Origin: Candidatus Gygaella obscura
GTDB lineage: Bacteria > Omnitrophota > Gorgyraeia > Gygaellales > Gygaellaceae
DNA: 36,278 nucleotides
Assembly (NCBI GenBank): GCA_030765485.1
Contig: JAVCCR010000018.1
Span: forward strand, 1 to 36,278
Reading direction: 5' to 3'
Below are positions 1 through 21,202 of the stretch, in pieces; the stretch's first letter is position 1; the number at the start of each line of letters is the position of its first letter. The translations under genes were made by a program, and so were the position numbers. The notes beneath the pieces are model-generated. The model worked only from the letters and a program-made list of their open reading frames with translations. It was not told the origin of the DNA and made no database searches.

Positions 1-2
1 AA

Positions 3-3000
3 AACATTCCTTCCAGTTTGGCTCACACCGTTTCTTCTCAAGACCACGGCTATGACGGTGCCGGATTATTAACAGCTATAGGTAGATTTTTGCTTGGTGT
101 TGGCAGATGGAGCAAGGTTAGTGTTGACGAAGGATTAATAGATGAAGCTATAAACTATATAACAACAGGTATTAATATTGAAAAAGCTAAGTTTTTAGAA
201 AATGTTATTATTCGTCGCGGACCTCCAAGCTTTAATAAACCTTCTTTTAACCTCATTAATCCTTTTACTGGAACCCGTTATGTTTTCCTAAGAGAAGGAG
301 CTTCTCTTGAAGAAATAACCCACGAACTTTTAGCTGCTAAGGGCGGCCTAATCCACAAAGAAGTTGAAGAACTGGTAGTAAGATTAGCTAAATCATCAGA
401 AAATAGCAGAACTAGAGAGCTAGTAAGCAAGTTAGGCGGAGGGGTTAGCGGAATATTAAACGAAAATTTTCCAGCTATTTCATTTGCTCTCACTCCGTCA
501 ATAAGTTATATAGAAAATAAAAAATTAATACCAAAAATTAAAAAATGGTTATGTGCAATTGAGATACGTGCCGGTCCTTATATTTTTAATGAATTCAATA
601 AATCCTATCTTGAAAGAGGTTTGCATGAAGTATTAGCTGAAATATTACGTAGATTTTATACTGCTACACAAAAACCTACCAATAAAATTAAACCTAAATT
701 CGACAACGGTGGCGATAAGTTATCTAACTCATTGTTTAATAAAAAAGGAAAACTTAAAAGAGATGTATATGTCCCGTTTAAAGATATTTCGGTAGATTCA
801 TTTACTATCAAAGAGACGGTTAATTTTTCTTTTGAAAATTCTAGCTATAAAATGCCAGAATCTGTAGTATCAGCAGCAAAAATCTGTGTAATTGCATGCA
901 AATTTTTAGTTATTGTAATATGCTTAGGACTGGTTAATGCTTATTTTCAAGATGAGATGAGAATTCTTAATAATAATTTTCGATTAGGTTCAGAATTAAT
1001 TATTACGCTGGTTGGAATTTATTATTTGTCGAAGATTATTTTTAGTTGGTTTATTCGAGATGTTACTAATTTTTTAGTAGATGTTTTGGATGAACATTGG
1101 GAAGGGGGACAAAAGTTTTTTAGGTTTTGCTTAGGTGATAAGGTTGAGTCATTAACACTTTACGAAATAAAGAAAGAAAATGGAATCTACTCAAGAATAC
1201 CTAGGGAAATAAAGGTTAAAGCAATTGCGATTGGATTGTTTGGGTTTCATTTTTATATTGATGATGGATTTCTAATAAGAGTAATAAGATGGGTGAACTT
1301 TGTTATCTATCTTACTCCTAATTGGATGGGTACATTTTCAGGGTGGCGGTCTTTAAAAGAGATAAGCAGTGAATTATTAAAGGACTCTAAAGAATCTTGT
1401 AAGAAAGTTATTGAAAAATTAAAACACAAAAGGCCAGTTAAGGAACCAGTAATTAATAATCTGCTATGTATAATGGATGCGGGCGATTCCGACAATGGTG
1501 GAACACAAACAAGTCCACCAGACACCACGTCACAAGTTACAAGTAAGAATAATCTTGTCACATGTCACATGACACTTGTTACTGGTGACTTCGACAACGG
1601 TGGGAAAGATGAAAAAGCATATTTTATGTGTATTGTGGAAGAAATGAGAGGATTTACTAACAGGCTACCAAAAGATAGGGATGAATTAGAAAAAATTCTC
1701 CAAGGTTGGTATTCTGTGAGTGAGGCTGTAAAGTATTTAGGAATTAAAAAGAGAATAGCTTTTTATGATTTAAGAAAAGAATTTAGCATTAAAGGGGTTA
1801 AGGTTGATTTAGCTGGTTTGAGGAGTAGATTCTATTACCATAAAACAGAATTGGATAGAGTGTTAATTATTAACAGAGATCGTTTTAAAAAAATTGCTGA
1901 TTTAATGGAAGAAGTAGTTGGGGTGCAACCGGAAAACATAAATGATTTAGAAGAGCTACTTCTTGATTGGCGTGTTAGCAAAGAAGTTTCTTCTTATTTT
2001 GGCTTTAAAAGTAGAGGTACGTTTTATAGTATTTTAGAAAAAGCCGGGGTTAGAAAGGTTAAAGTTAACCTTATTCATAAACCAACAAAAGTTTATTATT
2101 ATGCAAAAGATATAGAAAGATTTAAATTAATTGATCTGCTTAGATTTTTAAAGGTAAAAAAACAGGTAGAGGTGCATTTAAATAGGAGTATAGGAACCAA
2201 GAATGAATTAATTAAAGTTTTAAGTGGTTGGCATAGAATAGAAACTATTCAGGTCTATCTTGATCTTAAACATAGTAGATTGTGGAAGATGGCAAGTAGG
2301 GGGGAGATTAAGACTGTGCTGATTGAGCTTTTTGGCTGCAGAAACGGCTACTCCATTCCGCCACAAGAAGCAAATAGGCTTATTCTTGAGAGAAAAGAGT
2401 ATTTAGAAAAAACAATGAATTTTGTAGAGGCACATACAGGTAAAAAACCTAAATCAAAAAAAGTTCTTTTTGCTGTTATTGAAAAGTGGGAGACTGCTGG
2501 TTCTTTATATAAAAGACTTGGTTATAGTGATCCAAGTTCGGTTACAGATTTAGCTAATGTAAAAGGATTAGAGTTTATTCTTTTTAGATCACCGGATGAA
2601 AATGTCGCAAAATATAGGTTTTCGCCGGATGTAGTTGAAAAATTAACAAATGAACAAAAAGGAAAGAAACAGAAGCTGTATGACTTTTATATGTCTTATT
2701 ATCCACGCAGAGCTGTAACTGTTGAACAGGCTATAAGTGAGGTGTTGATTTGGGATACTACAAAATCATTAGCTCAAAAAGTTGGGTGTGAAGAAGCTTT
2801 AATATCTGCCTGGACTTCTAGGGGTAGATTAGAATATGCTCAGGATTATTTGTCGGGTGGTTTTGTAAGGACTTGGCGTTATCCGCCAGAGGAAGCTCAA
2901 AAGCTAAAAGCTTTAAATGCTAAGTATATTAAGCAGATTAGAAAGGCGATAGGCTCTTATATGCAACAAGATCAAATGAGCGATGAGGCTTTTGTAAGTG

Positions 3001-5564
3001 AATTATTAAAATGGAAAACGATTAAAGAGTTAAGAAGAATCTTAACGATTTCAAAAATAAATATATCTGTGCTTATAAGTAGTGGAGTTGTTAAAGCATT
3101 TTTATTCAAGCGCGTAGGACATAAAGATCATTATCGTATTCCACCTCAGGAAGTAGAACGACTTAAGGTAGTCGAAGCCAGAGCTTCGGACTTTAATGAA
3201 TTATTTTTTGAGCGAAGCAGTGAAGGTATAGATTATTCGATTGTCAGCAAGTTAAGGTTAACGGAGGAGTTTAATTTGTGGGTGCAAAAAGTTAAAATTG
3301 ACAGAGTTGTTCTAAATTTTTCGATAGAACAAATTAGCGCTAAAAAAGAAGAGGAAAAGAAAAATATAATATATGATTTGATTGTATTGTCAAAGCAAGG
3401 CAACTCGATTGCTTTTGGGAAGCTTTTAGAATTATTTGATAAAGATTTGCGCAAAATAGTTAATATTTCTTTTACGAGAAATAGTAATCAAAACTTATCT
3501 TATCAAGATAGACTTTCTTATACGCAATTTGGTTTGTTCAATGTTGTTAGGAATTTTATATTTATGGGTGAATTTAGGCCGTACTTTTATAAGTCTTGCT
3601 TAGGGTACATATTAAACATAATAAGAGATGATAGAAAAAGAAAGCTTGAAGTGGAGGCAATCGCATACAGTAATAAAAATAGATTTGGCAAAGAAACTGT
3701 AAAGGATTTTTCTGATGATAGATACAAGCCCGATATAAACGATAACGGCGGGATAAAGAAAAGTAATTTTAGGGTAGAGGCTGAAAGAATAATTATAGAA
3801 AAGAAACTCAATATATATTTAAAAAATCGATTATTGTTTTCTAATAAAAAGTCTAGTAAGAATGGTTTTGTTTCAGCACTACTAACTTTTTTAGTCTATA
3901 AGCGCTCTCGCAATAAGATTTGGTGCAGTACACTTACTAATAAAATCACTATTCATCCTAAAGCCCGCTTACGTTATTTTGAAACCGATGGAATAATATC
4001 TGATTCAAAAAATAAATACTACCAATTTTTATCAGAGTTAAAAAGGGAAAAATTAATAAAAATCATAGATTCAAAAACATTGAGTGAACTAGGTATTGAG
4101 TCTTCGTATGTATACGTTAAGTCATCAGGGTCAATTGTTTTGATGGCTCATCATCGTATTGTTGGGGCTCAACTAGCAGGTATCTCTATCGTTGCCAAAG
4201 ATTTTATAGATAATAGAAATGTAATTGATCGATTACGGCTTAGTATTCCTATGATTTTGATATCTGGAAAGTCAAAAGTGCTACAACCTTTAATAGAAAG
4301 CAAGGATAATGGAGGAGAAAAAGAAGCATTAGAGAAAGAGGCTGAAAAGTTTACAAAACAAATAGTTTCGCTTGGCGCATCTTTGGAATATTTAGCCAGA
4401 AAAGGAAATTGTTTGTTATTTGTCGGTAAAGTTGCAGGGTTAATTTTTTATTCTAAGGAAAACCGGCCAATATTTCTAAAGCATTTGATTTTACTAAAAA
4501 TACTAAGGATATATGTTAAGTATAATTTGAGATTGCTTATGCCTGTTTTGATAAAACAAGGCAGCAGCCAAGAAGAGATTATTGATACTCTTTACGCCAG
4601 CTTAGGTGATAGGTATTTTAGAGGATTTCATGATTATGATGCAAAATCCAAGCCTTCATTAAGCAAATACGGAAGTTTATATGATAATGGCGGAAAAAAT
4701 CAGATAACCGAAGAAAGAAAAAAATGGAATTTTAAATGGCTTATGGAACAGCGTATGTTAAGACAAAGTGCATATATTGATCAATTGGAGTCAATATTTA
4801 ATGAATGTATGAATCCGGATGCGAGAATTTTGGAAATTGGCTCTGGTGCCGGAACCCTATGGTTGCTTTCGCCTTTTGAACATAGAGAAAAATGGGTCTC
4901 TTTGGATAGCGATTTTCAAGCATTAAGATTGGCTGAGTCTATGAATAATGGGGAAAGTTTTATTGATGCCTCGGTATTTAATTTGCCTTTTAAAGATAAT
5001 CTATTCGATTGCATTATCGGTTTAGAGGTTTTTCCTTATTTTGACAATCTTGAAGGAGTCTTATTAGAAGTCAATAGAGTGTTAAAAAAGAGCGGAAAAT
5101 TTATAAATCTTATTGATTATCCTTGTCAAAAATACTCTTTGGCAAAAGATATCCAAAGAGCCGTTTTAAAGATGGGCTTAGAAGATATCGCTGAGTTTGA
5201 TGAGCTTTCTTTTTGGTCCAGCGACTTAAATGAAGGCTGTTTAAAGAATAGTTTATCCGGGGCATTCGAGAAAAGGCAGATCAGTAAAAAAGAACATGTT
5301 TTAATGACTGCTTGCATTGAAGAAATCAAAAAAAACGGAAGCAGGGAAATTGAATTCGATAAATTATTCAATCCATTATTAAGTTATGAATTGTCCGGAC
5401 TGGGGATTAATGAGTTAATTTCCGGTTACCAGAGATATGATACTCAACCGGTGCAGGGATTTTCTTATTTTATAGCTGAGAAAAACGGTCTTAGAAATGA
5501 TATTTATACTCCGCAGGCTGGGGAATCAAGGGATTACGGTAAAGATAAGCGAGTAATAGATTAG
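3..5564 (+). CDS. giant mosaic protein with DNGG-linked modules (HTH array, sigma-like, methyltransferase), 5' partial
   Basis: The frame is open to the left edge, so the start lies outside the window; a TTG at 18 is only the first possible in-window start and is used for numbering here. Six DNGG tetrapeptides (residues 229, 492, 526, 1242, 1430, 1556) divide it. Module 1 (to 228) has a THEL...H stretch that is not a full HExxH. Module 2 (233-491) has at least two membrane segments (about 287-307 and 325-345). A 30-residue Thr/Val/Ser linker follows. Module 3 (530-1241) carries six excisionase/MerR-like helix-turn-helix repeats (about 555-1051), then a sigma-70 region-2-like segment (about 1115-1210). 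Modules 4 and 5 are unrecognised. Module 6 (1560-1848) is a class I SAM methyltransferase: motif I E1606-x-G-x-G-x-G1612, acidic D1630. The frame ends at TAG 5562 but continues open beyond it. The overall function is unknown; the methyltransferase and HTH calls are good, the sigma-like call moderate. Confidence 0.8.
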   Translation, partial: NIPSSLAHTVSSQDHGYDGAGLLTAIGRFLLGVGRWSKVSVDEGLIDEAINYITTGINIEKAKFLENVIIRRGPPSFNKPSFNLINPFTGTRYVFLREGASLEEITHELLAAKGGLIHKEVEELVVRLAKSSENSRTRELVSKLGGGVSGILNENFPAISFALTPSISYIENKKLIPKIKKWLCAIEIRAGPYIFNEFNKSYLERGLHEVLAEILRRFYTATQKPTNKIKPKFDNGGDKLSNSLFNKKGKLKRDVYVPFKDISVDSFTIKETVNFSFENSSYKMPESVVSAAKICVIACKFLVIVICLGLVNAYFQDEMRILNNNFRLGSELIITLVGIYYLSKIIFSWFIRDVTNFLVDVLDEHWEGGQKFFRFCLGDKVESLTLYEIKKENGIYSRIPREIKVKAIAIGLFGFHFYIDDGFLIRVIRWVNFVIYLTPNWMGTFSGWRSLKEISSELLKDSKESCKKVIEKLKHKRPVKEPVINNLLCIMDAGDSDNGGTQTSPPDTTSQVTSKNNLVTCHMTLVTGDFDNGGKDEKAYFMCIVEEMRGFTNRLPKDRDELEKILQGWYSVSEAVKYLGIKKRIAFYDLRKEFSIKGVKVDLAGLRSRFYYHKTELDRVLIINRDRFKKIADLMEEVVGVQPENINDLEELLLDWRVSKEVSSYFGFKSRGTFYSILEKAGVRKVKVNLIHKPTKVYYYAKDIERFKLIDLLRFLKVKKQVEVHLNRSIGTKNELIKVLSGWHRIETIQVYLDLKHSRLWKMASRGEIKTVLIELFGCRNGYSIPPQEANRLILERKEYLEKTMNFVEAHTGKKPKSKKVLFAVIEKWETAGSLYKRLGYSDPSSVTDLANVKGLEFILFRSPDENVAKYRFSPDVVEKLTNEQKGKKQKLYDFYMSYYPRRAVTVEQAISEVLIWDTTKSLAQKVGCEEALISAWTSRGRLEYAQDYLSGGFVRTWRYPPEEAQKLKALNAKYIKQIRKAIGSYMQQDQMSDEAFVSELLKWKTIKELRRILTISKINISVLISSGVVKAFLFKRVGHKDHYRIPPQEVERLKVVEARASDFNELFFERSSEGIDYSIVSKLRLTEEFNLWVQKVKIDRVVLNFSIEQISAKKEEEKKNIIYDLIVLSKQGNSIAFGKLLELFDKDLRKIVNISFTRNSNQNLSYQDRLSYTQFGLFNVVRNFIFMGEFRPYFYKSCLGYILNIIRDDRKRKLEVEAIAYSNKNRFGKETVKDFSDDRYKPDINDNGGIKKSNFRVEAERIIIEKKLNIYLKNRLLFSNKKSSKNGFVSALLTFLVYKRSRNKIWCSTLTNKITIHPKARLRYFETDGIISDSKNKYYQFLSELKREKLIKIIDSKTLSELGIESSYVYVKSSGSIVLMAHHRIVGAQLAGISIVAKDFIDNRNVIDRLRLSIPMILISGKSKVLQPLIESKDNGGEKEALEKEAEKFTKQIVSLGASLEYLARKGNCLLFVGKVAGLIFYSKENRPIFLKHLILLKILRIYVKYNLRLLMPVLIKQGSSQEEIIDTLYASLGDRYFRGFHDYDAKSKPSLSKYGSLYDNGGKNQITEERKKWNFKWLMEQRMLRQSAYIDQLESIFNECMNPDARILEIGSGAGTLWLLSPFEHREKWVSLDSDFQALRLAESMNNGESFIDASVFNLPFKDNLFDCIIGLEVFPYFDNLEGVLLEVNRVLKKSGKFINLIDYPCQKYSLAKDIQRAVLKMGLEDIAEFDELSFWSSDLNEGCLKNSLSGAFEKRQISKKEHVLMTACIEEIKKNGSREIEFDKLFNPLLSYELSGLGINELISGYQRYDTQPVQGFSYFIAEKNGLRNDIYTPQAGESRDYGKDKRVID
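1529..1589 (+). repeat. imperfect inverted repeat inside coding sequence between two DNGG motifs
   Basis: The left arm 1529-1545 and right arm 1573-1589 are complementary at 14 of 17 positions around a 27-base loop that contains a duplicated TCACATG. It lies in a low-complexity linker encoding Thr, Ser and Val, flanked by DNGG motifs at 1491 and 1593. It could be a small palindromic element carried in frame, or chance in low-complexity DNA. Confidence 0.5.
1680..3170 (+). repeat. six tandem excisionase/MerR-like helix-turn-helix repeats (protein level)
   Basis: Six units begin near residues 555, 641, 729, 814, 905 and 991, a period of about 86-91 residues. Each starts with a short helix ending in Trp, then a helix-turn-helix of the type W-x(3-5)-A/V-x(2)-L/F-G, a wing, and a Y-x-x/P-P-E-x-E/A-x-x-L/K closing helix. 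Repeats 3, 5 and 6 close with almost the same IPPQE or YPPEE phrase. The pattern fits the HTH_17 excisionase family, whose members bind DNA. The repeats have diverged strongly at DNA level, so the array is old. Confidence 0.72.
5562..5564 (+). other. single in-frame TAG interrupting the mosaic frame
   Basis: The TAG at 5562-5564 is the only stop in frame between the left edge and 9902. Codons 5565-5747 directly after it are open and encode a DNGN motif plus the first half of a GNAT-like fold, which would be lost if translation restarted at ATG 5748. No good ribosome binding site precedes 5748. TAG serves as an ordinary stop at 13123, 19625 and 23907, so it is not reassigned generally. Options are a recent nonsense mutation, a base error, stop readthrough, or reinitiation. 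Confidence 0.75.
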
Positions 5565-5747
5565 GAAAGCGATTCGGGTTTTAAACTGCAAGATAACGGC
5601 AATAAAAAGGTAAAACTGTTCAGGCAGCTTAGCGAAGAGGAAAGAGCTGATATATCTTATTGGGAAAGTGTTTCCAGCTTACATCTTGAAAAAGATTGTT
5701 TTTTCGCAGTAGAAAAAAACCATATCGTAGGAATTCTTTCGTATCGC

Positions 5748-8700
5748 ATGCAGCCTAATTACGATAGGGTTATTATTCTTGGTCTTTATGCAAAGCAGTG
5801 GAAGGAGCGTTTGGATATACGAGAGATGCTTTGGCATCGCGCCTGGCAGTTGTTTAGTAATGTTGGTGAAGTTACTTTAACCGATATTCTTTCAACCGGT
5901 CTTTCTGCATGGAAAGAGCTCGTAGGAGAAGATAACATTGTTGAAATTCCCGAAGGGGATATTGTGGCTTATCAAGTATCTATTAAACGCAATAATCATG
6001 ATAATGGAAGTAGTAACGATGTTTTTATTGATGTTGAGGAAAAAGTATTCAACAATCGGATAAGACATTGGGAACTTTTGGATGGCGGGATCCCCTTATT
6101 AGATCCTGAGATTTATAGGGGAGATAATGGAGGTTTTAAAAAAACTACTTTTTCTTTAACGAGTTATTTGGCAAGCAGTATGCTCTTATTGAATTCTATT
6201 TTTATGGACGGTTGTTCAATCTCTTCGGTAGATATGCAACAGTATAAATCTCAACAGGTACAGATACCACAGAATGAATTAGCTCAGTATTCTGCTGCCA
6301 TAAATCAATGCTTAGCGCAGCGTAATTATCATCTTGCAATGCGATATTATGTCGAGTTATATTCTAAACACAGAGATTTATTCAGCCAGATTAGTTTTAA
6401 AAGCCAAGCTTCCAAAGATATTATGGTTGATGAGATTATTGCTTCTAAAGCTAATTTAGGTAAGGAATCAGACTTGGACCCAGAAGGTATTTTAGAAGCA
6501 ATGGATGTTACTTCTGAGGAAATCATCAAAAGCCATGAAAGATTATTAAGAAGAGATAATTTTTTAGTTGCCTTTTGTTCTGCCAGGGTCTTGGCTAAAT
6601 TAGGAGACTATTCTTGTAGGGATATTTTAATAAAGGGTATGGATAGAGATTTTAATTTAGGTCAAATTTACCGTTTAAACAATATAAAACCTGAAGACCA
6701 GGAGAAAATTGAAGATTATATTGCTATGGCGGCAGCTTCCTATCTGGCGGAAATTGCCGATACTGCTGCCGAGGGTTATTTTATTAGGGTTTTGACTGAT
6801 AAAAGCCATGATTTGAATTATAGAATTAATGCATTAAATTGTTTAGCTAATTACCCTGGGAATTTTTCCAATGAAGCTCTTATGGAAGTGGTTTATGATA
6901 ATTCTGTTAAAATCCGCTCTGGGTCAATAGTGCTTCTAGGTGAAAGAATGGAAATTAGAGCAAAAGATATTTTCATAATCGGTCTTCAAAGCGGAATTGA
7001 AGAAGTGATTCAAGCTTCTGCAGTGTCCGCAGCGTTTATTGAAGATACGCGTGCAATAAGTCATATCGGAGAGCTTTTATATTCGAATATATCAGAAGAT
7101 ACCAAATTAACCTTAATATCAGCATTGGTTCGGCTTGGCACAAAAAAAGCACTTCATATTCTAATGGCATTCTCTAAATTAAGTCAAGGTAAATTGCAGG
7201 AATCTGCTTTAGCAGCAATAGCTAATTTTGATGAGCCAGAGGCAAAACATATCCTTGTTACAGCGCTAGAAGAAGATAGGGCTTCTTTAAGAAGTATTGC
7301 CGCAGAGTCCCTTTCAATTTACCTAGAAGACGACAGAACTTTATTTAATAAAATTAACTTTCTTTTAAAAACAGATACAAGTGATGAAGTAAGGGCTTCT
7401 TGCATAGCCAGTTTATCTACTGTTGGGATAAAAGAAGCCGAAGATATTATTTATAATTATTCATATGATAGTAATTGGCGCATTAGAAAAGAAGCTGCAC
7501 TAGGTCTTGATAGATATGTTGATAAAAAGGCAATCGATAGGATAAGCGATTTGATGTATGATGTTAATGAAAAGGTAAGGCAAGCGGCAACTATAGCTGC
7601 AGCTAATAAATTGGAAGATAATCCGATATTACGCATTGATATGGAAGTTAAGTTGGAAGACCCTTCAAAGAAAATTAGAAGCATTGCTGCTATGGTATTG
7701 GCACCACATTTAGATAAATACCCGCAGTTTAATACCAATATTAGAAGAATTTTAGTAGATAGCGATATTCAAGCTAAAGCGGGTATTTTATTAGCAATAG
7801 CGCAATCCAATACAGAAGTAGCTGCAAGTGTTATAAAACCATTTTTACGCAGCAATGAACCTTTATTAAAGCATACTGCAATTACTTCTTTAGCCAGCAT
7901 GGACAATGTCAATATCAGTCAATTATTAACTGGTTTTGTTAAAGATAATGATTGGCATATTAGACAGGCAGCAGCTTTGGCTTTAGGTAATAGTTCAGAT
8001 TGGAATAATGTTGGTCATCTTCGCAATCTTATGCGCGATAATAATCCTTTTGTCAAGGCTGCAGCAATAGGTTCTTTTGCTAATTTGCCTAATGCACCGG
8101 TAAATGAATTAGTTCCATTTTTACAAGATAAAAGTTGGCAGGTTAGACATAAAACAATAGAGGTAATATCGCCAAAGATACCGGAGATGCCGGATTTAAG
8201 TAAAACTCTTTCAAGGCTTGCCAGATTTGATGATAGCTCATTGGTTCGTTCAGAGGCATTACTTTCGTTAGCGCCTATTAGCCAGCCACAAGTTATAGAT
8301 GTTGCAAATAATAACTTAAGAAGTAACGACTGGCTCCTCAGAAGAAATTCCGCATTAGCTTTAGGAAGTAGTAATTCACCGCTTACAATCACACCTTTGG
8401 TAAATATTTTAAGAGATCCACATCCTATGGTAAGAGCCGCAGCTATTCAAAGCCTTGGCCCTAAGATGACAAAATATCCTACTATTAGTAATTACGTTCA
8501 GCCTCTTTTGAATGATAGCAATTGGAGGGTGAGGCGTTCAACTGTAGAAACAATCGGTAATTTTTCAAGAACCAATTTTAAAAACGTAATAATTCCAAAG
8601 CTTCAAGATCCTTCTCCGGAGGTTCGTTTTAGCTCTGTTCAGAGTTTGGCGAAATTTAACACTTTAGATGTTACAAGAGCATTAATACCTACTTTAAAAG

Positions 8701-9902
8701 ATCCATCGCTATATGTTCATAAAATGGCAAAGATGGCTTTAGCAAAACAATTAGTTCTACATCCTGATTTTGAAAGAATATTCCCAGAGTTAAAAGAATT
8801 AAAACCTTTTATAGACGAATTAAAATCTACAGCAGGAGCGATAGTACATGTTTACGAAGGAATAAACCCTAAATATGAATTTAAAGCTAGGCAAGGATTC
8901 AATATTGGTTGGCATCATGTATATAGATCTGATAATTGGTCGCAAGACCTACAATTAAGAAAGAGTTTAGAATTAATAAATATTTTATCAGCGGGTAAAG
9001 TTGAGTTTAGAGAAGGTAATTGGTCCGGAAATCCTTCATCATCACAAAATGATATTCATAGAATTGGAGAAGATCTTTACAGAAGTTATCAAGATGCCAA
9101 GAGGACTAATCGAAAGTTTATTTTAATTGGTAATAGTGCTTTTAATAAGATGGGCCCCAAATCTTTTTCATACATCAAACAAAAATATAATAATCCTGTT
9201 ATCATGGCTGATCGTTATATTGGTACGGGTTATCCAGCGGTAGGATTTATTGGTATAAATATTGATTCAGTAAAGGAAATGTCGATTGAAAAACCAATTA
9301 TTGTTGGTTCTCAAGGCGACCCAGTATTTTTAATTCCTCAAATCTTTACAAATGAAAAATATTTTAAGTATAGAATGTACTCTGAGGTAAGGCATGCGGG
9401 AACCAAAGGATATTTCGATCATCCAGATTCAGTTTCGACAATAATTAACTTTTCTGGGTTTGTTGCACCTAATATCAGCAAAACCCAACAGTATTTGGAT
9501 ATTTTTAATAGAAAAATAAATGTTCTTTATGAGTTTTCTGAATTTAAGCAAAAATTTGAAACGCAAAATAGCCTTCCAAAGAACACATTTTCGGAGTATA
9601 ATTTTAATAGTATTAAGCCAGTTATAACGCATAGACCAGGACCTTTTTACAAAACATATAAAGGTAATATTCCTATAGTAAGACAGCCAGTGCCTAATTT
9701 TGCACCTTCTATGCCAAAAACTATTTATGAGCCGGTTAAACAATTTGAGGTTCCAAAAAAGTTTAGATCAGGGACTAATTTTAAATCATACACACCATCT
9801 ATTTATAATGTTCCAACTTATACGCCACCGATTGTTCCAAAGATGCCTGAACCGTCACCGCCACCTATATATAAACTACCTTCATTTAATAGACGTAGAT
9901 GA
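5748..9902 (+). CDS. GNAT-like, internal lipoprotein-like signal, HEAT-repeat and putative hydrolase protein
   Basis: ATG 5748 is the first Met, but the frame is open from 5565 and the GNAT-like domain begins there, so this is probably the second part of the mosaic gene. The GNAT-like region (to about residue 84) lacks a clear RxxGxG/A acetyl-CoA motif. DNGS (85-88) and DNGG (126-129) linkers follow. Residues 130-156 look like an export signal: Lys-Lys, a hydrophobic core and a Gly-Cys end (C156), although the lipobox is poor. Residues about 260-1017 are roughly twenty HEAT repeats of about 31 residues with the phrase D-x-x-W-x-V/I-R-x-x-A-A. A C-terminal domain (about 1030-1260) has G-N-S1130-A-F, D1191 and H1216/H1225, which could be an alpha/beta-hydrolase-like triad (tentative). 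The tail is proline-rich. HEAT arrays bind proteins; the role here is unknown. Confidence 0.75.
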   Translation: MQPNYDRVIILGLYAKQWKERLDIREMLWHRAWQLFSNVGEVTLTDILSTGLSAWKELVGEDNIVEIPEGDIVAYQVSIKRNNHDNGSSNDVFIDVEEKVFNNRIRHWELLDGGIPLLDPEIYRGDNGGFKKTTFSLTSYLASSMLLLNSIFMDGCSISSVDMQQYKSQQVQIPQNELAQYSAAINQCLAQRNYHLAMRYYVELYSKHRDLFSQISFKSQASKDIMVDEIIASKANLGKESDLDPEGILEAMDVTSEEIIKSHERLLRRDNFLVAFCSARVLAKLGDYSCRDILIKGMDRDFNLGQIYRLNNIKPEDQEKIEDYIAMAAASYLAEIADTAAEGYFIRVLTDKSHDLNYRINALNCLANYPGNFSNEALMEVVYDNSVKIRSGSIVLLGERMEIRAKDIFIIGLQSGIEEVIQASAVSAAFIEDTRAISHIGELLYSNISEDTKLTLISALVRLGTKKALHILMAFSKLSQGKLQESALAAIANFDEPEAKHILVTALEEDRASLRSIAAESLSIYLEDDRTLFNKINFLLKTDTSDEVRASCIASLSTVGIKEAEDIIYNYSYDSNWRIRKEAALGLDRYVDKKAIDRISDLMYDVNEKVRQAATIAAANKLEDNPILRIDMEVKLEDPSKKIRSIAAMVLAPHLDKYPQFNTNIRRILVDSDIQAKAGILLAIAQSNTEVAASVIKPFLRSNEPLLKHTAITSLASMDNVNISQLLTGFVKDNDWHIRQAAALALGNSSDWNNVGHLRNLMRDNNPFVKAAAIGSFANLPNAPVNELVPFLQDKSWQVRHKTIEVISPKIPEMPDLSKTLSRLARFDDSSLVRSEALLSLAPISQPQVIDVANNNLRSNDWLLRRNSALALGSSNSPLTITPLVNILRDPHPMVRAAAIQSLGPKMTKYPTISNYVQPLLNDSNWRVRRSTVETIGNFSRTNFKNVIIPKLQDPSPEVRFSSVQSLAKFNTLDVTRALIPTLKDPSLYVHKMAKMALAKQLVLHPDFERIFPELKELKPFIDELKSTAGAIVHVYEGINPKYEFKARQGFNIGWHHVYRSDNWSQDLQLRKSLELINILSAGKVEFREGNWSGNPSSSQNDIHRIGEDLYRSYQDAKRTNRKFILIGNSAFNKMGPKSFSYIKQKYNNPVIMADRYIGTGYPAVGFIGINIDSVKEMSIEKPIIVGSQGDPVFLIPQIFTNEKYFKYRMYSEVRHAGTKGYFDHPDSVSTIINFSGFVAPNISKTQQYLDIFNRKINVLYEFSEFKQKFETQNSLPKNTFSEYNFNSIKPVITHRPGPFYKTYKGNIPIVRQPVPNFAPSMPKTIYEPVKQFEVPKKFRSGTNFKSYTPSIYNVPTYTPPIVPKMPEPSPPPIYKLPSFNRRR

Positions 9903-9911
9903 GGAGATGCA

Positions 9912-10478
9912 ATGAATAAAAAACCACCATTATTATACCTATTCTCAATAGTTAATATCATTCTAAGCGTAAGTGGAATTATATTATTTTTTAATTTTTT
10001 CTATATGACAATAATTGTTGGCTGGGTTACAGATGTGCCTATCGACACAATTTTTCTTTGGATTAGGATTTTTATTTTGCAGAGATTAGCTTTAATCCTT
10101 GTATCTTTTTGTTTGGCTTTACTTTTTTGGGCAGGAGTTTCTCTTTTATTTAATAGAATAAAAGCGGTTAAATTAACCAAAACTGCCTTAATGGGAGTAA
10201 GTTTAGGGGTGTTAATATACATTGTGGATGGGATATTATTTTCTTCTAGTAGTATTAAACTAGATTATTTTTTAAAGGATTGTTTTTTTGTTTTATTGTT
10301 TTTTTCTTATTCGTTTATACAAGTGTATTACCTAAATACTGATACTGTTACATCTTTATTTGACGATACAGATATAAGATTAAGGTATGATAGATATGCT
10401 ATTGTAGTTTTTATAATCTTAGGTTTTTCTTGGTTGATGAGTTTGATAAGCAGCTATTTTTTGAAAACTTTATTTTAA
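9912..10478 (+). CDS. hypothetical integral membrane protein, 188 aa
   Basis: I do not recognise a family. The protein has about five hydrophobic segments (near residues 7-32, 50-80, 92-112, 120-140 and 163-185) with Lys/Arg between them, so it is an inner-membrane protein. A GGAG ribosome binding site lies at 9903-9906, and the gene starts 9 bases after the HEAT protein stop, so it is translated with it and may belong to the same unit. The next gene, also a small membrane protein, starts 6 bases downstream. No catalytic motif is visible. Confidence 0.75.
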   Translation: MNKKPPLLYLFSIVNIILSVSGIILFFNFFYMTIIVGWVTDVPIDTIFLWIRIFILQRLALILVSFCLALLFWAGVSLLFNRIKAVKLTKTALMGVSLGVLIYIVDGILFSSSSIKLDYFLKDCFFVLLFFSYSFIQVYYLNTDTVTSLFDDTDIRLRYDRYAIVVFIILGFSWLMSLISSYFLKTLF

Positions 10479-10484
10479 TTTAAT

Positions 10485-10925
10485 ATGGGTAATAATCTTT
10501 CTAAATTTTGGGCATTTGCTAATGTGTTTATAGTGATTTTATATTTTTTGTTTCAAGGATTATTTCTTGGTTTGATATTTATTTCAACAGGAATAATGCA
10601 TTGGATTGGTTATTATCATTTAGTTATATTTTTGGTAAGCCTTCCAATGAGTTTGATGTTAATAATTGGGATTGTATTAAAAATAGATTTTTTTAGAAAA
10701 CTAGCGATTGGTTTAACATGGTGGAGTTTAATAACTGCTCCTATTGTTCGTATAGCTAATTTGATATATTCATCAATAGAGTTGGATGATCTTAACTATG
10801 TTATGGAATATTTACTCGATTTTCGTTCTAGTTACACTATTGTTTTATTCATTCTTTTAAGGATTTACATTATTCTTGTTCTCCGTAAACACAACGCAGG
10901 TTATTTATTTAGTAGGGATGAATAA
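10485..10925 (+). CDS. hypothetical integral membrane protein, 146 aa
   Basis: About four hydrophobic segments (near residues 10-35, 42-66, 74-95 and 115-133) and a short charged C-terminus mark a small inner-membrane protein of unknown function. No Shine-Dalgarno sequence is seen in the 6-base gap after the preceding membrane gene, so translation is probably coupled. The similar size and layout of the two neighbours could mean paralogy or a heteromeric pair, but I see no convincing sequence match between them. Confidence 0.72.
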   Translation: MGNNLSKFWAFANVFIVILYFLFQGLFLGLIFISTGIMHWIGYYHLVIFLVSLPMSLMLIIGIVLKIDFFRKLAIGLTWWSLITAPIVRIANLIYSSIELDDLNYVMEYLLDFRSSYTIVLFILLRIYIILVLRKHNAGYLFSRDE

Positions 10926-10940
10926 CTAAAGGAGTCTCCC

Positions 10941-11285
10941 ATGCAAGAAAAACGATTTGCCCGCAGATTTAACACAAACGATACTCTTCAGTGTCTGGTG
11001 GCTGATAAAAAAGCAACAATATCAGATATCAGCCTTACCGGTACGAGGCTTAAGCTAGAAGGAAGCTATGATTTGGATAAGGAGCTTGAGCTGATGTTCA
11101 GGTTTGTGCCTGGTGCGCAGATAATCGTAATGGCAAAGCCTGTCTGGAACAGACAGGATGGCGAAAAAGTCAAAATCGGGGTAAATTTCACTAAGTTCTC
11201 TGATTCTGATAAGCAGAAGTTGTATCAGTTTATGTTTCAAAGGTTTAAGGATGAGTTCAAAAGTGCTTGGTGGGCAGATACTTAA
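10941..11285 (+). CDS. PilZ domain protein, 114 aa
   Basis: This is a single PilZ domain, the c-di-GMP receptor fold. The N-terminal RxxxR is R5-R9, and the D/NxSxxG motif is intact (D29, S31, G34). The rest follows the usual PilZ barrel, ending in a helix with several aromatic residues. Known single-domain PilZ proteins bind cyclic di-GMP and act on partner proteins, typically in motility, adhesion or exopolysaccharide control. A strong AAAGGAG ribosome binding site sits at 10928-10934. It precedes a second PilZ gene that has its own promoter. Confidence 0.9.
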   Translation: MQEKRFARRFNTNDTLQCLVADKKATISDISLTGTRLKLEGSYDLDKELELMFRFVPGAQIIVMAKPVWNRQDGEKVKIGVNFTKFSDSDKQKLYQFMFQRFKDEFKSAWWADT

Positions 11286-11291
11286 AAAAAG

Positions 11292-11320
11292 TTGTTTTTT
11301 TGCTAGCTATATGTTATACT
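11292..11320 (+). promoter_or_regulatory. sigma-70-type promoter for the second PilZ gene
   Basis: The -35 is TTGTTT (11292-11297), the spacer is 17 bases, and the -10 is TATACT (11315-11320). Transcription would start near 11327, giving a leader of about 15 bases holding a full AAGGAGGT (11328-11335) ahead of the ATG at 11342. Confidence 0.65.
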
Positions 11321-11341
11321 TAATTATAAGGAGGTAGTTCT

Positions 11342-11692
11342 ATGTCCGTATTCTCCACAGAGGAGCGCCGTGAGTTTGAACGTATTGACGTAAGTTTTCC
11401 AGTGGAAATCGAACCCAAAAAAGGCGCAAAGCGTATCAAGGCAGAAGCCAGGAATATCTGTGGTGCTGGGATGGCTGTGGTTTTAAAGAAAAAAATACCT
11501 CTTAAGGATGATGTAAGATTGATTTTACAGATTCCAGACAACCGTCAACCTTATAGCATTTATGGTAAGGTAGCCTGGGTTCAGGATGCGCCAGAAGGTC
11601 AAAATGTCCTGGGAGTAGGTTTTCATTCCGTGGATCTGTTTAGGCTTTGGCGAATTTTCAGATTGCCGGAAGTCCGAAAACCTATGTTTTAA
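11342..11692 (+). CDS. PilZ domain protein with variant NxCxxG motif, 116 aa
   Basis: This is a single PilZ domain. RxxxR is present at R10-R14, but the second motif reads N38-x-C40-x-x-G43, with Cys where Ser is usual. The remaining barrel (GKVAW, the GVGFHSVD phrase) is typical of the family. It should still bind c-di-GMP, because the arginines and the N/D and G positions are kept, but the Cys could alter affinity or make the site redox-sensitive (inference). It has its own promoter and a perfect Shine-Dalgarno. It follows another PilZ gene and precedes the glycan operon, 122 bases downstream. Confidence 0.9.
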   Translation: MSVFSTEERREFERIDVSFPVEIEPKKGAKRIKAEARNICGAGMAVVLKKKIPLKDDVRLILQIPDNRQPYSIYGKVAWVQDAPEGQNVLGVGFHSVDLFRLWRIFRLPEVRKPMF

Positions 11693-11719
11693 ATTCCAAA
11701 TAATTAAATAATAAAACAC

Positions 11720-11748
11720 TTGACCATAGGCTTTGTCTATGGTAAATT
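11720..11748 (+). promoter_or_regulatory. promoter of the glycan operon with a dyad in the spacer
   Basis: The -35 is TTGACC (11720-11725) and the -10 is TAAATT (11743-11748), 17 bases apart. An inverted repeat ACCATAG-N7-CTATGGT (11723-11743) fills the spacer and overlaps both elements. A repressor bound there would block polymerase. The same dyad followed by AAATTTTT could instead be a weak terminator of the PilZ gene. Confidence 0.5.
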
Positions 11749-11788
11749 TTTACTACTTTTATAGTAAAGGTTTTAAAAAGTTTTTAAA
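11749..11788 (+). promoter_or_regulatory. two further inverted repeats in the leader of the glycan operon
   Basis: TTTACTA-N6-TAGTAAA occupies 11749-11768, and a perfect 17-base palindrome TTTAAAAAGTTTTTAAA occupies 11772-11788. Both lie between the -10 and the GGGAG ribosome binding site (11804-11808). Candidate binders are the LacI-type and PilZ-ROK regulators encoded downstream. AT-rich palindromes also arise by chance. Confidence 0.4.
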
Positions 11789-11814
11789 TATTATATATAA
11801 CACGGGAGAGCTTA

Positions 11815-13125
11815 ATGGGTTTTAATAAAAGAGGGGTAGGTTTTTGTTGTTTAGTGCTTTTATTGGCTTTTGTTTTTATCGGCAACTGGGGATGTGTTTC
11901 TAATCAGATTACTGATTCAGATTCATTAATAATATGGCACTGGATGACAGACAGAGAAGAAGCATTTAATACTTTAGCAATAAAGTATGAGGAACTTACC
12001 GGTATAAAAATCCAATTTGATCTTTTTACTCCTTCTGATGTGTATTCACAAAAAATCATTGCTTCCGCACAAGGCAAGACCTTACCAGATATTTTCGGAA
12101 TTCTAGGCAAAAAAAGAGACGCTGCTGCCTTCGTAAAAGCAGATTATGTTCTGGATCTAACCAGCTATATGAATGAGGACAATGATAAATGGCGTAGTAT
12201 GATTTTTGATAAGGCATTAAGCCTCGGAGAGTTTAAAGAAGGCAATGTTTTTAAAGCTGCAGCAGGCGTGTATGCAGTTCCCATTGACCTAATGAATGTA
12301 CAGATGGTTTATAATAAAAACTTGTTTAAAAAAGCAGGTCTTAATCCTAATAGGCCTCCTCAAAGTTGGAATCAGTTTATTGAATATTTAAAGACGTTAC
12401 GCGCAAACGATATCGGAGGATTTGCCAGCGGTTGGGCAGAGACATGGCTAATTGACAGTTTTGCCTTAAACTATGCATTTAACATTATGGGTGAAGATAA
12501 AGTTATGGCTACGATTAAGGGAGCCGCATCTTATAATGACTCGGATTGGATAAAGGTGTTTAAACTTTTTGAAGAGATTCGTGATGTTGATGGGTTAGTC
12601 TCAGGTGTGGTAACAATGGATAATAAATATGCCGAACAGCTTTTCTCCAATGAAAGGGCTGCTTTTGCCTATAACGGCAGCTGGTGTATTAATGTTTATA
12701 AGGGTATGAATCCTGATTTGGAGTACGCAGCAATGATGCCTCCGCCATTTACAAGAAAAAACCCTATGGTTATCTGGGGTTCAGCTGGAGCTTCTTTTTA
12801 TATAAATAAAAAATCACCCAAAGCAGAAAAAGCAGTTAAGTTTTTAAAGTGGCTTACAGAAGAGGATCAGCAGGTATTTTTGATTGAGAAAACAGTAAAT
12901 CTGCCTTCAAATAAAAAATGTTTAACCATGATACCTAAAGCCTTATCGCAGTTTGCCGATGACTTAAACAATATCACCCATCCTAATATCTGGCCGTATG
13001 AAGAGTCTCCTAAGGTAACCGAGGCATTTGATAAAGGGATACAGTCTATTATTATTGGTGAAAAAACCGCAGAACAGGTGGCTGCGGAAGTTGATAAGGT
13101 AAAACAAAAGGTTTTAGCAAAATAG
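11815..13125 (+). CDS. sugar ABC transporter substrate-binding lipoprotein, 436 aa
   Basis: This is an extracellular solute-binding protein of the MalE/UgpB type (family 1), which captures an oligosaccharide and delivers it to the MalF/MalG-like pair encoded next. The N-terminus has basic residues, a hydrophobic core and an N-W-G-C end, so the mature lipoprotein would start at C27, although N at -3 is unusual. The length and landmark phrases (ITVWHW-like start, GKTLPDIF, an internal NGSWCINVY, and a WGSAGASFYI stretch before a final helix with A-VKFLKWLT) are typical. GGGAG at 11804-11808 is the ribosome binding site. It is the first gene of the operon, and the stop is 3 bases before the permease start. 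The substrate is likely a glucan- or mannan-derived oligosaccharide, judged from context only. Confidence 0.92.
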   Translation: MGFNKRGVGFCCLVLLLAFVFIGNWGCVSNQITDSDSLIIWHWMTDREEAFNTLAIKYEELTGIKIQFDLFTPSDVYSQKIIASAQGKTLPDIFGILGKKRDAAAFVKADYVLDLTSYMNEDNDKWRSMIFDKALSLGEFKEGNVFKAAAGVYAVPIDLMNVQMVYNKNLFKKAGLNPNRPPQSWNQFIEYLKTLRANDIGGFASGWAETWLIDSFALNYAFNIMGEDKVMATIKGAASYNDSDWIKVFKLFEEIRDVDGLVSGVVTMDNKYAEQLFSNERAAFAYNGSWCINVYKGMNPDLEYAAMMPPPFTRKNPMVIWGSAGASFYINKKSPKAEKAVKFLKWLTEEDQQVFLIEKTVNLPSNKKCLTMIPKALSQFADDLNNITHPNIWPYEESPKVTEAFDKGIQSIIIGEKTAEQVAAEVDKVKQKVLAK

Positions 13126-13128
13126 TTT

Positions 13129-14001
13129 ATGTATAATAAAAGGTTATCGAATTATTTTTTCATATTACCGGCTGTTTTAATATTCAGTATGTTTTATATC
13201 TACCCATTTTTTAAGACGCTTCAGTTAAGTCTTCATTCTTGGGATGGTATACAGCCTACGATGCAGTTTGTCGGGCTAGCTAATTTTAAAGAACTGTTTT
13301 TAGATGATAAGGCCTGGTGGTCATCAATGCTTAATGCCGGGTATATTACTTTTTGGGCATTGACATTCCAGAATGCCATTGCTTTAGTGCTTGCCTTGGC
13401 ATGCGATAAGGCTTTGCGTATCGGTTCAGTTTACAGGGTAATATTTTTTATACCACCGGTTCTTTCAGAGATTGTTGTAGGTCTTGTTTGGAAGTGGATC
13501 TATAACGGTGATTATGGGATACTTAATCATTGGTTGGTTAGTTTAGGTCTTGGGTCATTAGCTAGCGATTGGCTGGCTCAGCCTTCAACAGCTCTAACCG
13601 CTATTGCCATAGTTCATTCCTGGAAGGGTTTTGGCTGGGCGTTTATAATTCTTTTGGCGGGTTTGCAGACCATACCAGCTCAGCTTTATGAGGCTGCTTA
13701 TGTTGATGGCGCCAATGCCTGGAGAAGATTTATCAATATTACTATACCGATGATGGTGCCGGTTTTTATTATGGTAATGATTCTTACTGTTCTAGGTACA
13801 ATGCAAGGATTTGCGTTGATACTTGCAATGACCGGAGGTGGTCCGGCAGGCCATACGGAGGTTCCGGTTATCAGGATATTAAATTCTATGAAGAATAGTC
13901 AATTTGGTTATGCCTGTGCGCAGGCATTGATATTCGGGATGATTTTAGTGACGATTTCTTTTATTCAGATTAGGGTCTCCAAATTCTTAAAACAGGAATA
14001 A
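13129..14001 (+). CDS. sugar ABC transporter permease, MalF/UgpA type, 290 aa
   Basis: This inner-membrane permease has about six transmembrane segments and the binding-protein-dependent transport signature (EAA loop: EAAYVDGANAWRRF then IPMMVP), which contacts the ATPase. Length and topology match MalF-family subunits lacking the extra periplasmic loop. It pairs with the downstream permease to form the translocation pore for the sugar delivered by the upstream lipoprotein. Its stop codon overlaps the next start by one base (TAATG), giving translational coupling. Confidence 0.92.
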   Translation: MYNKRLSNYFFILPAVLIFSMFYIYPFFKTLQLSLHSWDGIQPTMQFVGLANFKELFLDDKAWWSSMLNAGYITFWALTFQNAIALVLALACDKALRIGSVYRVIFFIPPVLSEIVVGLVWKWIYNGDYGILNHWLVSLGLGSLASDWLAQPSTALTAIAIVHSWKGFGWAFIILLAGLQTIPAQLYEAAYVDGANAWRRFINITIPMMVPVFIMVMILTVLGTMQGFALILAMTGGGPAGHTEVPVIRILNSMKNSQFGYACAQALIFGMILVTISFIQIRVSKFLKQE

Positions 14002-14834
14002 TGCAGAAACTTAAAAGAATATTCAGCAATATCTCAATTCACTTTTTGCCCTTAATAGTTGCGGTTAGTTGTATTTTGCCACTTTTATGGATGCTTTCAT
14101 CAGCTTTGAAAACTCAGCAGACGGTTTTTAAAGACATGAGTTTAATACCAGAGGTTTCCCATTGGGAAAACTTTATCCTTGCCTGGGGTAAGGGCGGTTT
14201 TAGCATGTATTTCCTAAACAGCATCATGTATACCGTGCTTGTGGTTATTGGAATTGTATTGATTTCGTCTCTAGCGGCATTTGCTTTTTCCAGATTGGAC
14301 TTTCCTTTTAAGAATTTTATTTTTTATGTATTTTTAGCAGCAATGATGATTCCTCTTCCGGGTTCATTCGTTCCTTTATATGTTTTGCTTGTAAAGTTAG
14401 GTTTGGCCAATACCAGAGTAGGCTATTGTTTTTCCATGATTAATGTAGGGTTATCTTTAAGTATTTATCTACTGAAGACATTTTTTGATAAATTGCCAAG
14501 AGACTTAGAGGATGCAGCGCGTATTGATGGTTGTAGCAGAATCGGCATATGGTGGCATGTGGCATTTCCTCTGGCGCGCCCGGCAATCGGAGTGGTTACG
14601 ATTTATAATACTCTAAATGTATGGAATGAATATATTCTGGCATTGATTATCTTACAGTCTAAGAGTTTAATGCCTTTACAAAGAGGCCTGATGGTTTTTC
14701 AAGGTGCACATATAACTGAGTACCCGTTATTAATGGCTGGTATTACGATTACGATAATACCTATTTTAATAGTTTATCTCTTCTTACAGAAATTTATTAT
14801 TAAAGGTCTGACTGCTGGAGCGGTAGTAGGTTAA
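14001..14834 (+). CDS. sugar ABC transporter permease, MalG/UgpE type, 277 aa
   Basis: This is the second permease of the importer. It has six hydrophobic segments, and the EAA loop reads LEDAARIDGCSRIGIWW followed by a FPLARPA stretch. The C-terminal GLTAGAVVG is close to the usual MalG ending (GxTAGAVKG). It is coupled to the preceding permease by the TAATG overlap. No nucleotide-binding subunit follows, so the importer must use a shared MsmK/UgpC-like ATPase encoded elsewhere, as is known for many CUT1 importers. Confidence 0.92.
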   Translation: MQKLKRIFSNISIHFLPLIVAVSCILPLLWMLSSALKTQQTVFKDMSLIPEVSHWENFILAWGKGGFSMYFLNSIMYTVLVVIGIVLISSLAAFAFSRLDFPFKNFIFYVFLAAMMIPLPGSFVPLYVLLVKLGLANTRVGYCFSMINVGLSLSIYLLKTFFDKLPRDLEDAARIDGCSRIGIWWHVAFPLARPAIGVVTIYNTLNVWNEYILALIILQSKSLMPLQRGLMVFQGAHITEYPLLMAGITITIIPILIVYLFLQKFIIKGLTAGAVVG

Positions 14835-14837
14835 ATT

Positions 14838-17105
14838 ATGAAAAAGATTATTTTATTAACATTTTGTTTTTTATTTTCTTTTTGTTCCTTTGTTTTTACA
14901 CAGGAAGATTCTTTAGGGCTAGTTAAAAGAGCTTGGGAAGCACAAGGAAAAAAAGAATTTGATAAAGTTTTTCAGATTACCGATCGTTGTATTGCGCTTT
15001 ATAAAGATGAAGCAGATATCCAGCAGAAAAGCTTAAGTAAAATGCCGGAAGGCTCTGATGCCAAGGCGTATGAAGTTTTAAACAATGTTGCTACAAGTTA
15101 CTTTATCCAGGCAGAAGCCTTGATGCGTCAGGAAAGCTTAGAAGATGCAAAGGAGAAGTTTAAGTTTGTGGTGGATAATTATCCTTTTTCCCAGGCCTGG
15201 GATCCTAGAGGTTGGTATTGGTCTGTGTCTAAGGTGGCTCAGGAAAGTATTGATAAGATAAACAACAGACTGACGGATAAAGATGCAGAGATTTATGCCT
15301 TAAAAGAGGCAATACCTGTAATTAAGATTAAACTGCATGATTCTGGAACGGACGAGCCAATAGATTATAATAAGTACGGCAAGTTTAAGAATATCGGTAC
15401 AAAAGATTATACCTATGATATAGAAGACCAGGAAGGTTTATCCCTTGTATGCGGCGAAGGGGTATATCCAAATACTTCAAGCGTGCGGTGGAATCCTCTT
15501 TTTGTAGAATATAGACGCGCAAGAAAATTAGGCGGTTCGGTCTGGGATTATGTGCATTCAAAGAATCTACAGGCGGCATTTTTTAAATGGGCATCTTCTA
15601 CAGAACCTATGGGGGCAAAGTTATTTTATACCGCAAATATTTTAGAAAAAAGCGGTCTTATAAAGCAAGCCATAAAAACCTACTATTCTATTGTTGTTCA
15701 TTTTCCTTCAAGCTACGGATGGACATACTGGCATACGCCGTGGTATCTGGGGGAAGCATCGATTTATAAGATAAAGTATTTATTGCGTAATAACCCAGAA
15801 CTGAACTGGGAGTTAAAGGATGCCAAAATCCAGATTATAAACGGATTCGATAATAATGTGGCTAACGATATTGCGATTGTTAACCCGGGCGTATTGCAGA
15901 AACAAAAGAATAAATTTGATTTTAAAAAAGCAGTAAGGGAAGTAATTGCAAAGCTGAAGAAAAAAGTTATTAAAAAGCGCGGAGAAGGAAAGGTAAAATT
16001 AGTCCAGTATGATGATGGTAAATGGCAGATGCTGGTTAATGATAAGCCTTATATGATTAAGGCAATTACTTATGCTCCTACGCCAGTTGGTGAGAGCCCT
16101 GATGAGGGAACGATGACTAACTGGATGGAATATGATTCTAATGATAATGGCAGAATTGACGGGCCATTCGATAGCTACTTAGATACGGATAAAAATAAAA
16201 CTCCTATTGGGGATTTTAAGCTTATGAAGGAAATGGGTGTAAATACTATAAGGCTTTATCATCATCCGCTAAAGATTAACAAAAAATTGCTGCACACGCT
16301 TTATAATGATTACGGTATGCATGTTATCCTGGGGGATTTTTTAGGTAAATATGCCATAGGTTCAGGTGCCAGCTGGTCAGAAGGTACGGATTACTCTAAT
16401 CCTACCCATCAAGAGAATATGTTAAAGTCAATTTTAGGTATGGTTAAAGAATTTAAAGATGAACCGTTTATATTGTATTGGCTTTTAGGTAATGAAAATG
16501 TCTATGGTTTAGCCTGTAATGCCGATAAGGACCCGGATAGTTTTTTCAAGTTTGCTAATAAAGTGGCTTTAGAAATAAAGAAAATTGACAAAGAACATCC
16601 TGTGGGAATTTGTAGCGGCGATACATTATATTTAGATGTGTTTGCTAAAAACTGCCCGGATATAGATATATTTGGAACTAATTCCTATAGAGGTAATTTT
16701 GGTTTTGGCGGTCTTTGGGAACATGTAAAGGATTACGCTGATATCCCTGTAATTATAACCGAATACGGTTGTCCGGCATACGGTGAAGATTTGACTCAGG
16801 AAGAAGCCGAAGATTTCCAGGCAGATTATCATAAAGGCACCTGGGAGGATATTTTGATTAATTCTCAAGTCGATCCTGGTTTTGGCAATGCCATAGGTGG
16901 TGTGGTGTTTCAGTATCTGGATGAATGGTGGAAGGCGTATGAACCTTATACGCATGATAAAAAGGGTTTATTTACCGGCCCGTTTCCTGACGGTTATATG
17001 CATGAAGAGTGGCTTGGCATATGTGGACAGAAAAAAGGAGATGATTCACCGTTTTTAAGACATTTAAGAAAATCCTATTTTTATTATAAGAAGGCGTGGA
17101 GATAA
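14838..17105 (+). CDS. secreted TPR plus clan GH-A glycoside hydrolase, 755 aa
   Basis: A signal peptide (about residues 1-21) is followed by a TPR-like helical region (about 25-330) with a repeated hairpin phrase ending in a FP-S-x-x-W pattern. A TIM-barrel hydrolase occupies about 375-755. The acid/base is probably E553 in LLGNEN, and the nucleophile E642 in IITEYG, the usual GH-A spacing. An EF-hand-like loop (residues 433-444, DSNDNGRIDGPF) sits at the start of the barrel and may bind calcium. The architecture resembles GH2, GH5 or GH72 barrels, and I cannot choose among them. It would act in the periplasm or outside on a beta-linked glycan, feeding the importer encoded just upstream (4-base spacing). 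A paralogous barrel without TPRs is encoded at 18332-19627. Confidence 0.8.
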   Translation: MKKIILLTFCFLFSFCSFVFTQEDSLGLVKRAWEAQGKKEFDKVFQITDRCIALYKDEADIQQKSLSKMPEGSDAKAYEVLNNVATSYFIQAEALMRQESLEDAKEKFKFVVDNYPFSQAWDPRGWYWSVSKVAQESIDKINNRLTDKDAEIYALKEAIPVIKIKLHDSGTDEPIDYNKYGKFKNIGTKDYTYDIEDQEGLSLVCGEGVYPNTSSVRWNPLFVEYRRARKLGGSVWDYVHSKNLQAAFFKWASSTEPMGAKLFYTANILEKSGLIKQAIKTYYSIVVHFPSSYGWTYWHTPWYLGEASIYKIKYLLRNNPELNWELKDAKIQIINGFDNNVANDIAIVNPGVLQKQKNKFDFKKAVREVIAKLKKKVIKKRGEGKVKLVQYDDGKWQMLVNDKPYMIKAITYAPTPVGESPDEGTMTNWMEYDSNDNGRIDGPFDSYLDTDKNKTPIGDFKLMKEMGVNTIRLYHHPLKINKKLLHTLYNDYGMHVILGDFLGKYAIGSGASWSEGTDYSNPTHQENMLKSILGMVKEFKDEPFILYWLLGNENVYGLACNADKDPDSFFKFANKVALEIKKIDKEHPVGICSGDTLYLDVFAKNCPDIDIFGTNSYRGNFGFGGLWEHVKDYADIPVIITEYGCPAYGEDLTQEEAEDFQADYHKGTWEDILINSQVDPGFGNAIGGVVFQYLDEWWKAYEPYTHDKKGLFTGPFPDGYMHEEWLGICGQKKGDDSPFLRHLRKSYFYYKKAWR

Positions 17106-17179
17106 CAAAGGAGGGGTGAATATTGGAAATAAATTTAGTTGACACTTTATTAAAATACAAAGCAAAAAGGAGGAGCTGT

Positions 17180-18322: not shown

Positions 18323-18331
18323 AGTAATTTT

Positions 18332-21188: not shown

Positions 21189-21202
21189 TATAACAAGTTA
21201 TA
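21189..21202. repeat. short palindrome before the outer-membrane barrel gene
   Basis: TATAACAAGTTATA has six-base arms around AA and lies directly after the TGA of the TPR gene, inside an AT-rich 45-base gap with several TATAAT-like strings. It may be an operator or chance. Confidence 0.25.

Follow-up and report, generated by a model that had tools for sequence, protein, structure and literature searches.

Giant open reading frames (ORFs) of more than 20 kb are known in the phylum Omnitrophota, for example one coding for 39,678 residues in 'Ca. Velamenicoccus archaeovorus' (PMC10066038). The excerpt of that account used here describes them as having few annotated domains and an unclear function (PMC10066038). 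Here, we study a gene of this type in Candidatus Gygaella obscura (genome G000, 1.38 Mb), where a giant ORF of 24,182 codons (72.5 kb, 5% of the genome) ends within a contig of 36,278 nucleotides, C16; this contig is the whole stretch analysed and is called the window. The gene resembles the described giants in phylum, size class and membrane segments, and giant frames occur in many genomes of the order. Unlike what the same excerpt reports, it contains dozens of enzyme-like modules and a short peptide, Asp-Asn-Gly (DNG), at nearly all joints between them, which the excerpt does not mention. A first-pass annotation of the window had proposed that a DNG(G/N/S) peptide joins unrelated modules in one giant frame at 702-6134, as a possible processing or linker system. 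We confirm the observation and extend it: the peptide marks joints in a giant gene that is conserved and is specific to the lineage, and we infer that processing is the best of several readings.

DNG occurs 50 times in the combined frame, which includes the part after an in-frame TAG described below, whereas 5.6 copies would be expected (Poisson P about 5e-30). The permuted tripeptides were used as a control and are found 5 (DGN), 3 (NDG), 11 (NGD), 8 (GDN) and 3 (GND) times. In the window part of the frame, which lies on the forward strand like all features given below, there are nine DNG against 0.54 expected and seven DNGG against 0.03 expected. All nine annotated copies are present: DNGG at 702..713 (GACAACGGTGGC), 1491..1502 (GACAATGGTGGA), 1593..1604 (GACAACGGTGGG), 3741..3752 (GATAACGGCGGG), 4305..4316 (GATAATGGAGGA) and 4683..4694 (GATAATGGCGGA), DNGN at 5592..5603 (GATAACGGCAAT), DNGS at 6000..6011 (GATAATGGAAGT), and a last DNGG at 6123..6134 (GATAATGGAGGT), which is followed by a signal-peptide-like stretch (FKKTTFSLTSYLASSMLLLNSIFMDGC). 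The annotation had held that each copy is coded differently. The 12-base codings are indeed all distinct, but the first 11 bases are identical in the copies at 702 and 1593, and in those at 4305 and 6123. The conserved core is DNG and not DNG(G/N/S), as residue 4 varies; along the whole frame it is mostly Asn, Gly, Asp or Ser.

The peptide is located at borders between unrelated modules, in agreement with the first-pass annotation. Only one of the 50 copies is inside a Pfam domain, at residue 5023, where a histidine kinase has DNGRGIP as its usual ATP-binding motif, and duplicated or exchanged modules begin at DNG. The flanks are slightly on the hydrophilic side, with a mean hydropathy of -0.5 and -0.7 compared with -0.3 overall, and some DNG-to-DNG intervals are just 14-41 residues long. 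The reported absence of the motif from the HEAT region of the window holds. A longer part of the giant, residues 6371-12438 in G000, also lacks DNG over 6,067 residues and holds the part most common to the genera (24-57% identity). By pattern search, DNGG is not enriched elsewhere in the genome: 15 of 20 matches are on two contigs of the giant frame, and the remaining five are within background (13 matches for the backward pattern). A stricter pattern, DNGG followed by Lys or Arg, did not separate genomes from background among 285 genomes of the phylum, and none of the papers searched deals with a DNGG peptide.

To follow the peptide through divergence, G000 was compared with G111, a genome of the same genus. 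For every DNG of G000 with an alignment to G111, the counterpart is also DNG (26/26, with one pair shifted by a residue by the aligner and one in a weak local alignment), while tripeptides in general are 43% conserved. The identity between the two genomes is 0.72-0.77 in domains, 0.47 over the eight residues that precede DNG, 1.0 for each of D, N and G, and 0.44 over the five residues that follow; this profile is based on pairs selected for DNG in both genomes, a selection that does not apply to the 26/26 count. The synonymous divergence (dS) is about 0.6-2, and the modules with an estimable dS are under purifying selection, with a ratio of nonsynonymous to synonymous divergence (dN/dS) of 0.08-0.25. 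Twelve codings are used among 43 DNG copies. As the codons differ while the peptide is conserved in 26/26 cases at this distance, selection keeps the peptide, which is what the annotation had argued.

Modules are exchanged as units at the inter-module peptides. BLAST alignments start at DNG in 9 of 24 cases within G000 (1.2 expected) and in 26 of 92 cases between genomes (5.5 expected). Modules present only in G000 (15083-15451 and 17081-17213) have both ends at DNG, and so do modules present only in G111 (contig C7 4965-5168 and 5466-6211, contig C15 812-1068). The module at 20936-21065 is swapped between the genomes, its replacement being glutamate-racemase-like by eye. Recombination of modules at DNGG, raised in the first-pass annotation as a check, is thus observed: whether a module has been duplicated, inserted, deleted or replaced, its break lies at DNG.

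According to Pfam, the giant contains guanylate kinase, NUDIX, HAD, sugar-phosphate isomerase, HD, glycosyltransferase, response regulator, histidine kinase, NDK, HPr, several methyltransferase, HTH and HEAT domains. In the array they sit between DNGs, the histidine kinase motif being the sole exception with an internal DNG. The catalytic residues look intact by eye in NDK (HGSD) and HAD (DFDDT). A search of genome contigs with a stretch containing NDK gave no match. The giant was considered as the sole source of essential enzymes and rejected, as each of the eight genomes checked carries ordinary stand-alone NDK and guanylate kinase genes; for the same reason, the giant modules are extra, diverged copies. 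Among 384 genomes of the class, 12 have one unnamed family, the A1 module (giant residues 18065-18234; L024:12335-12844:-), and only within long open frames (2,150-57,756 codons). Three Tat-type motifs are present in the whole frame, at 5, 7 and 8 residues past a DNG, one of them combined with a lipoprotein box. A signal-like stretch also opens the HEAT module.

The N-terminal part of the giant consists of a signal-peptide-like start and a C39-type cysteine peptidase-like domain (Pfam), followed by a membrane-rich core and then by an array, variable in content, of enzyme-like modules that are complete. In this domain Cys120 and His208 are kept in five aligned sequences, and they are also visible in G242 and G471. 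Of 128 genomes of the order, 63 have the domain, which heads giant frames of up to 57,756 codons. The longest of these (G242, contig C2 22777-196044) is one open frame that runs off its contig. The closest named relative of the N-terminal 386 residues is in a metagenome-assembled genome, Candidatus Omnitrophota bacterium M55B134 (76% match). The giant gene is a conserved Omnitrophota gene.

In other lineages the joints carry other peptides. SSP[LIV] is used in related giants, with 70 SSP in contig C5 of G037, 68 in G160 and 55 in G215, and fewer in G288, G148, G079, G139 and G308. DGG is used in others, with 27 DGG in G069 and 22 in G222. The examined Pfam domains of G037 lie between SSP motifs and none of them spans one. 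At homologous borders DNG in G000 corresponds to SSP[LIVA], i.e. at the start of the HAD module (G037), at the start of the A1 module (G288, G148) and at the end of the histidine kinase (G037). Homologues with the same modules and no DNGG, which the first-pass annotation had counted against its proposal, therefore exist in other genera; some have a replacement motif and some giant ORFs have none. Compared with other codons of the frame, the joint codons of G000, G111, G069, G037, G160 and G288 more often have G or C in third position, with a G/C fraction there (GC3) of 0.47 against 0.28 for DNG, 0.58 against 0.36 for DGG and 0.47-0.54 against 0.35-0.39 for SSP.

The frame is not confined to the window. 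It starts with an ATG in contig C10 (C10:117567), passes through contig C33 and ends at the TAG at 5562. The C10-C33 join is a 114-base overlap, in frame with the start of C33. Contig C33 (45,927 bases) is stop-free end to end, with a single frame of 15,308 codons, and alone (45.9 kb) exceeds the 20-kb criterion for an Omnitrophota giant ORF. The C33-window join rests on gene order in G111 and on an exact 51-base overlap of the end of C33 (reverse complement) with positions 1..51 of the window, which is in frame and continues the giant ORF; a single G111 contig (C15) contains homologues from both sides of this join in one frame. The last 1,853 codons of the giant ORF are at 3..5564.

The first-pass annotation, which gave one frame over 702-6134, missed the in-frame TAG at 5562..5564, ten codons ahead of the next DNG. 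No stop is present at the matching site in the 2,800-codon frame of G111. The frame reopens directly after the TAG, and the first start codon, ATG 5748, is within the GNAT-like module. The HEAT part shares one frame with upstream modules in G111 and G037, and it is constrained (dN/dS 0.24). The TAG may be a recent nonsense mutation, a read-through site or an assembly error.

The window modules start with one with two predicted membrane segments and no Pfam match (702..1490). It is followed by a 716-residue module with HTH_17 DNA-binding-type repeats (1593..3740, Pfam E 5.9e-9) and by two modules without a confident family, of 188 residues (3741..4304) and 126 residues (4305..4682). The methyltransferase module (4683..5561, Pfam) has a paralogue at giant residue 20670, within C33, and the two are homologous from their DNG onwards. 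All three GNAT-like copies of the giant frame begin at DNG; the third is at 5592..5999. The HEAT-repeat module (6123..9899, Pfam) forms the C-terminal end of the giant frame, and it is C-terminal and in one frame in G037 too. The methyltransferase, HTH_17 and HEAT labels of the annotation are therefore supported by Pfam, the GNAT label has a weak match (E 0.13) and the sigma-like label has no Pfam support. Alignment-free fold prediction of 4305-5561 gave a mean predicted local distance difference test score (pLDDT) of 37. Downstream, at 9912-25292, are small membrane proteins, a sugar ABC transporter, GH2-like and TPR proteins and a PilZ/ROK protein. An Rfam scan of positions 1-12000 found no RNA element.

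The strict conservation of the joint while the surrounding sequence drifts suggests that DNG is recognised by the cell. Judged from sequence, there is about an even chance that the giant is a modular, polyprotein-like chain in which DNG serves as a recognition signal, most probably for a module-releasing protease. In the genus, accessory enzyme-like modules are joined by an obligatory, lineage-specific Asp-Asn-Gly, and a protease would recognise it and free the modules after translation. Signals of the Tat type function at the N-terminus of a protein. Release at DNG would therefore explain their position, as it would make the downstream Tat-type and lipoprotein-type signals N-terminal. The specificity would have been re-set by lineage, as DNG, DGG or SSP[LIV]. 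The C39-like domain of the giant itself is one candidate for the processing enzyme. More tentatively, at somewhat less than an even chance, dozens of enzymes, regulators and exported proteins would make up a cellular polyprotein of about 24,000 residues, cut at a tripeptide particular to the lineage. Whole modules would come, go and be exchanged between the sites of cutting, and site and protease would have changed together between lineages (DNG, DGG, SSP[LIV]).

Several observations weigh against processing. No protease among legumain, archaemetzincin and the C39-like domain correlates with the motif. C39 enzymes classically cut after Gly-Gly, which is offered by 15 of the 50 joints only, and the C39-like domain also turns up without a visible DNG motif. 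Some giant ORFs, of about 10,000-58,000 codons, have no enriched joint motif, the motif-less G104 belongs to the same genus as the motif-rich G215, and the enrichment of alignment starts is weaker at SSP joints than at DNG. As motif-specific proteases, legumain (C13) was rejected, being absent from 11 genomes, and archaemetzincin (M54) was rejected because its module has no match in G111 and is not correlated. The archaemetzincin-like module (giant residues 4524-4618; L063) has HExxHxxGxxH in place and ends just ahead of the first DNG.

The giant might instead work intact, as a scaffolded multi-enzyme in which DNG forms a tight turn between domains and serves as a structural hinge or spacer. 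Gly- and Asn-rich joints are common as turns, the flanks are somewhat hydrophilic and other lineages manage without the motif, but a spacer gives no reason for three fixed residues to recur from one joint to the next while the residues beside them vary freely. It would leave the Tat-type signals internal, and it would have to separate stretches of merely 14-41 residues. A plain flexible linker thus does not account well for a tripeptide that stays invariant while its flanks change fast, and we regard the spacer as unlikely, although it is the strongest of the alternatives. The Asn-Gly pair could also break by itself, as it is the most labile of residue pairs, and scission or deamidation would then free the modules with no enzyme. 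However, the Asp at position 1 would be superfluous, 77 further Asn-Gly pairs are present in the frame outside DNG, and SSP[LIV], which is not labile, is found at homologous joints elsewhere. Asn-Gly lability, one of the mechanisms raised by the first-pass annotation, is disfavoured because other lineages use SSP[LIV] or DGG at their joints, and we consider it highly improbable.

Invariance and lineage-specific switching are expected of any recognition site, so DNG could be recognised without being cut, as a modification, docking or attachment site, e.g. one to which a secretion or surface factor binds at each module. The analysis yielded no candidate partner, and a docking peptide need not keep so consistently to module edges, which makes this improbable. 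Finally, the tripeptide could be a functionless scar left by a DNA-level mechanism that inserts genes at a short sequence. Module gain and loss are exact at DNG, and the higher GC3 of its codons (0.47 against 0.28, with DGG and SSP likewise) looks as if an older DNA sequence were still visible. The 12 codings among 43 copies and the peptide kept in 26/26 cases at a dS of about 0.6-2 make a scar very improbable.

The proposed release of modules by a protease can be set beside known systems. The N-terminus of the giant matches Peptidase C39, the bacteriocin-leader peptidase, in Pfam with the conserved Cys120 and His208, but unlike in that family no ABC exporter part is seen in its domain, and Gly-Gly is limited to the minority of joints given above. 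MARTX toxins work in a similar way, being large secreted proteins whose exchangeable modules are set free by a cysteine protease that is part of the protein (PMC6315884, PMC2900308). Module exchange at inter-module peptides, as in MARTX, supports a similar way of working and not membership, and Pfam scans of the giant-frame pieces found no match to the MARTX protease domain or to RTX repeats. Unlike in MARTX, the modules are metabolic and regulatory enzymes, the giant is more than four times larger and cleavage is inferred. The precise, lineage-specific joint motif makes the processing idea directly testable. Should the chain be cut, this would be a polyprotein of a cell and not of a virus, on a scale that the papers found do not describe, with genes turned into modules of one chain. 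Viral polyproteins carry a short site at each joint, and these sites change together along the chain between lineages; here too the likeness is one of working. Unlike them, the giant is a cellular gene with no assigned protease and modules of unrelated origin. What it has in common with processed polyproteins is a conserved short sequence at the joints with the features of a recognition site.

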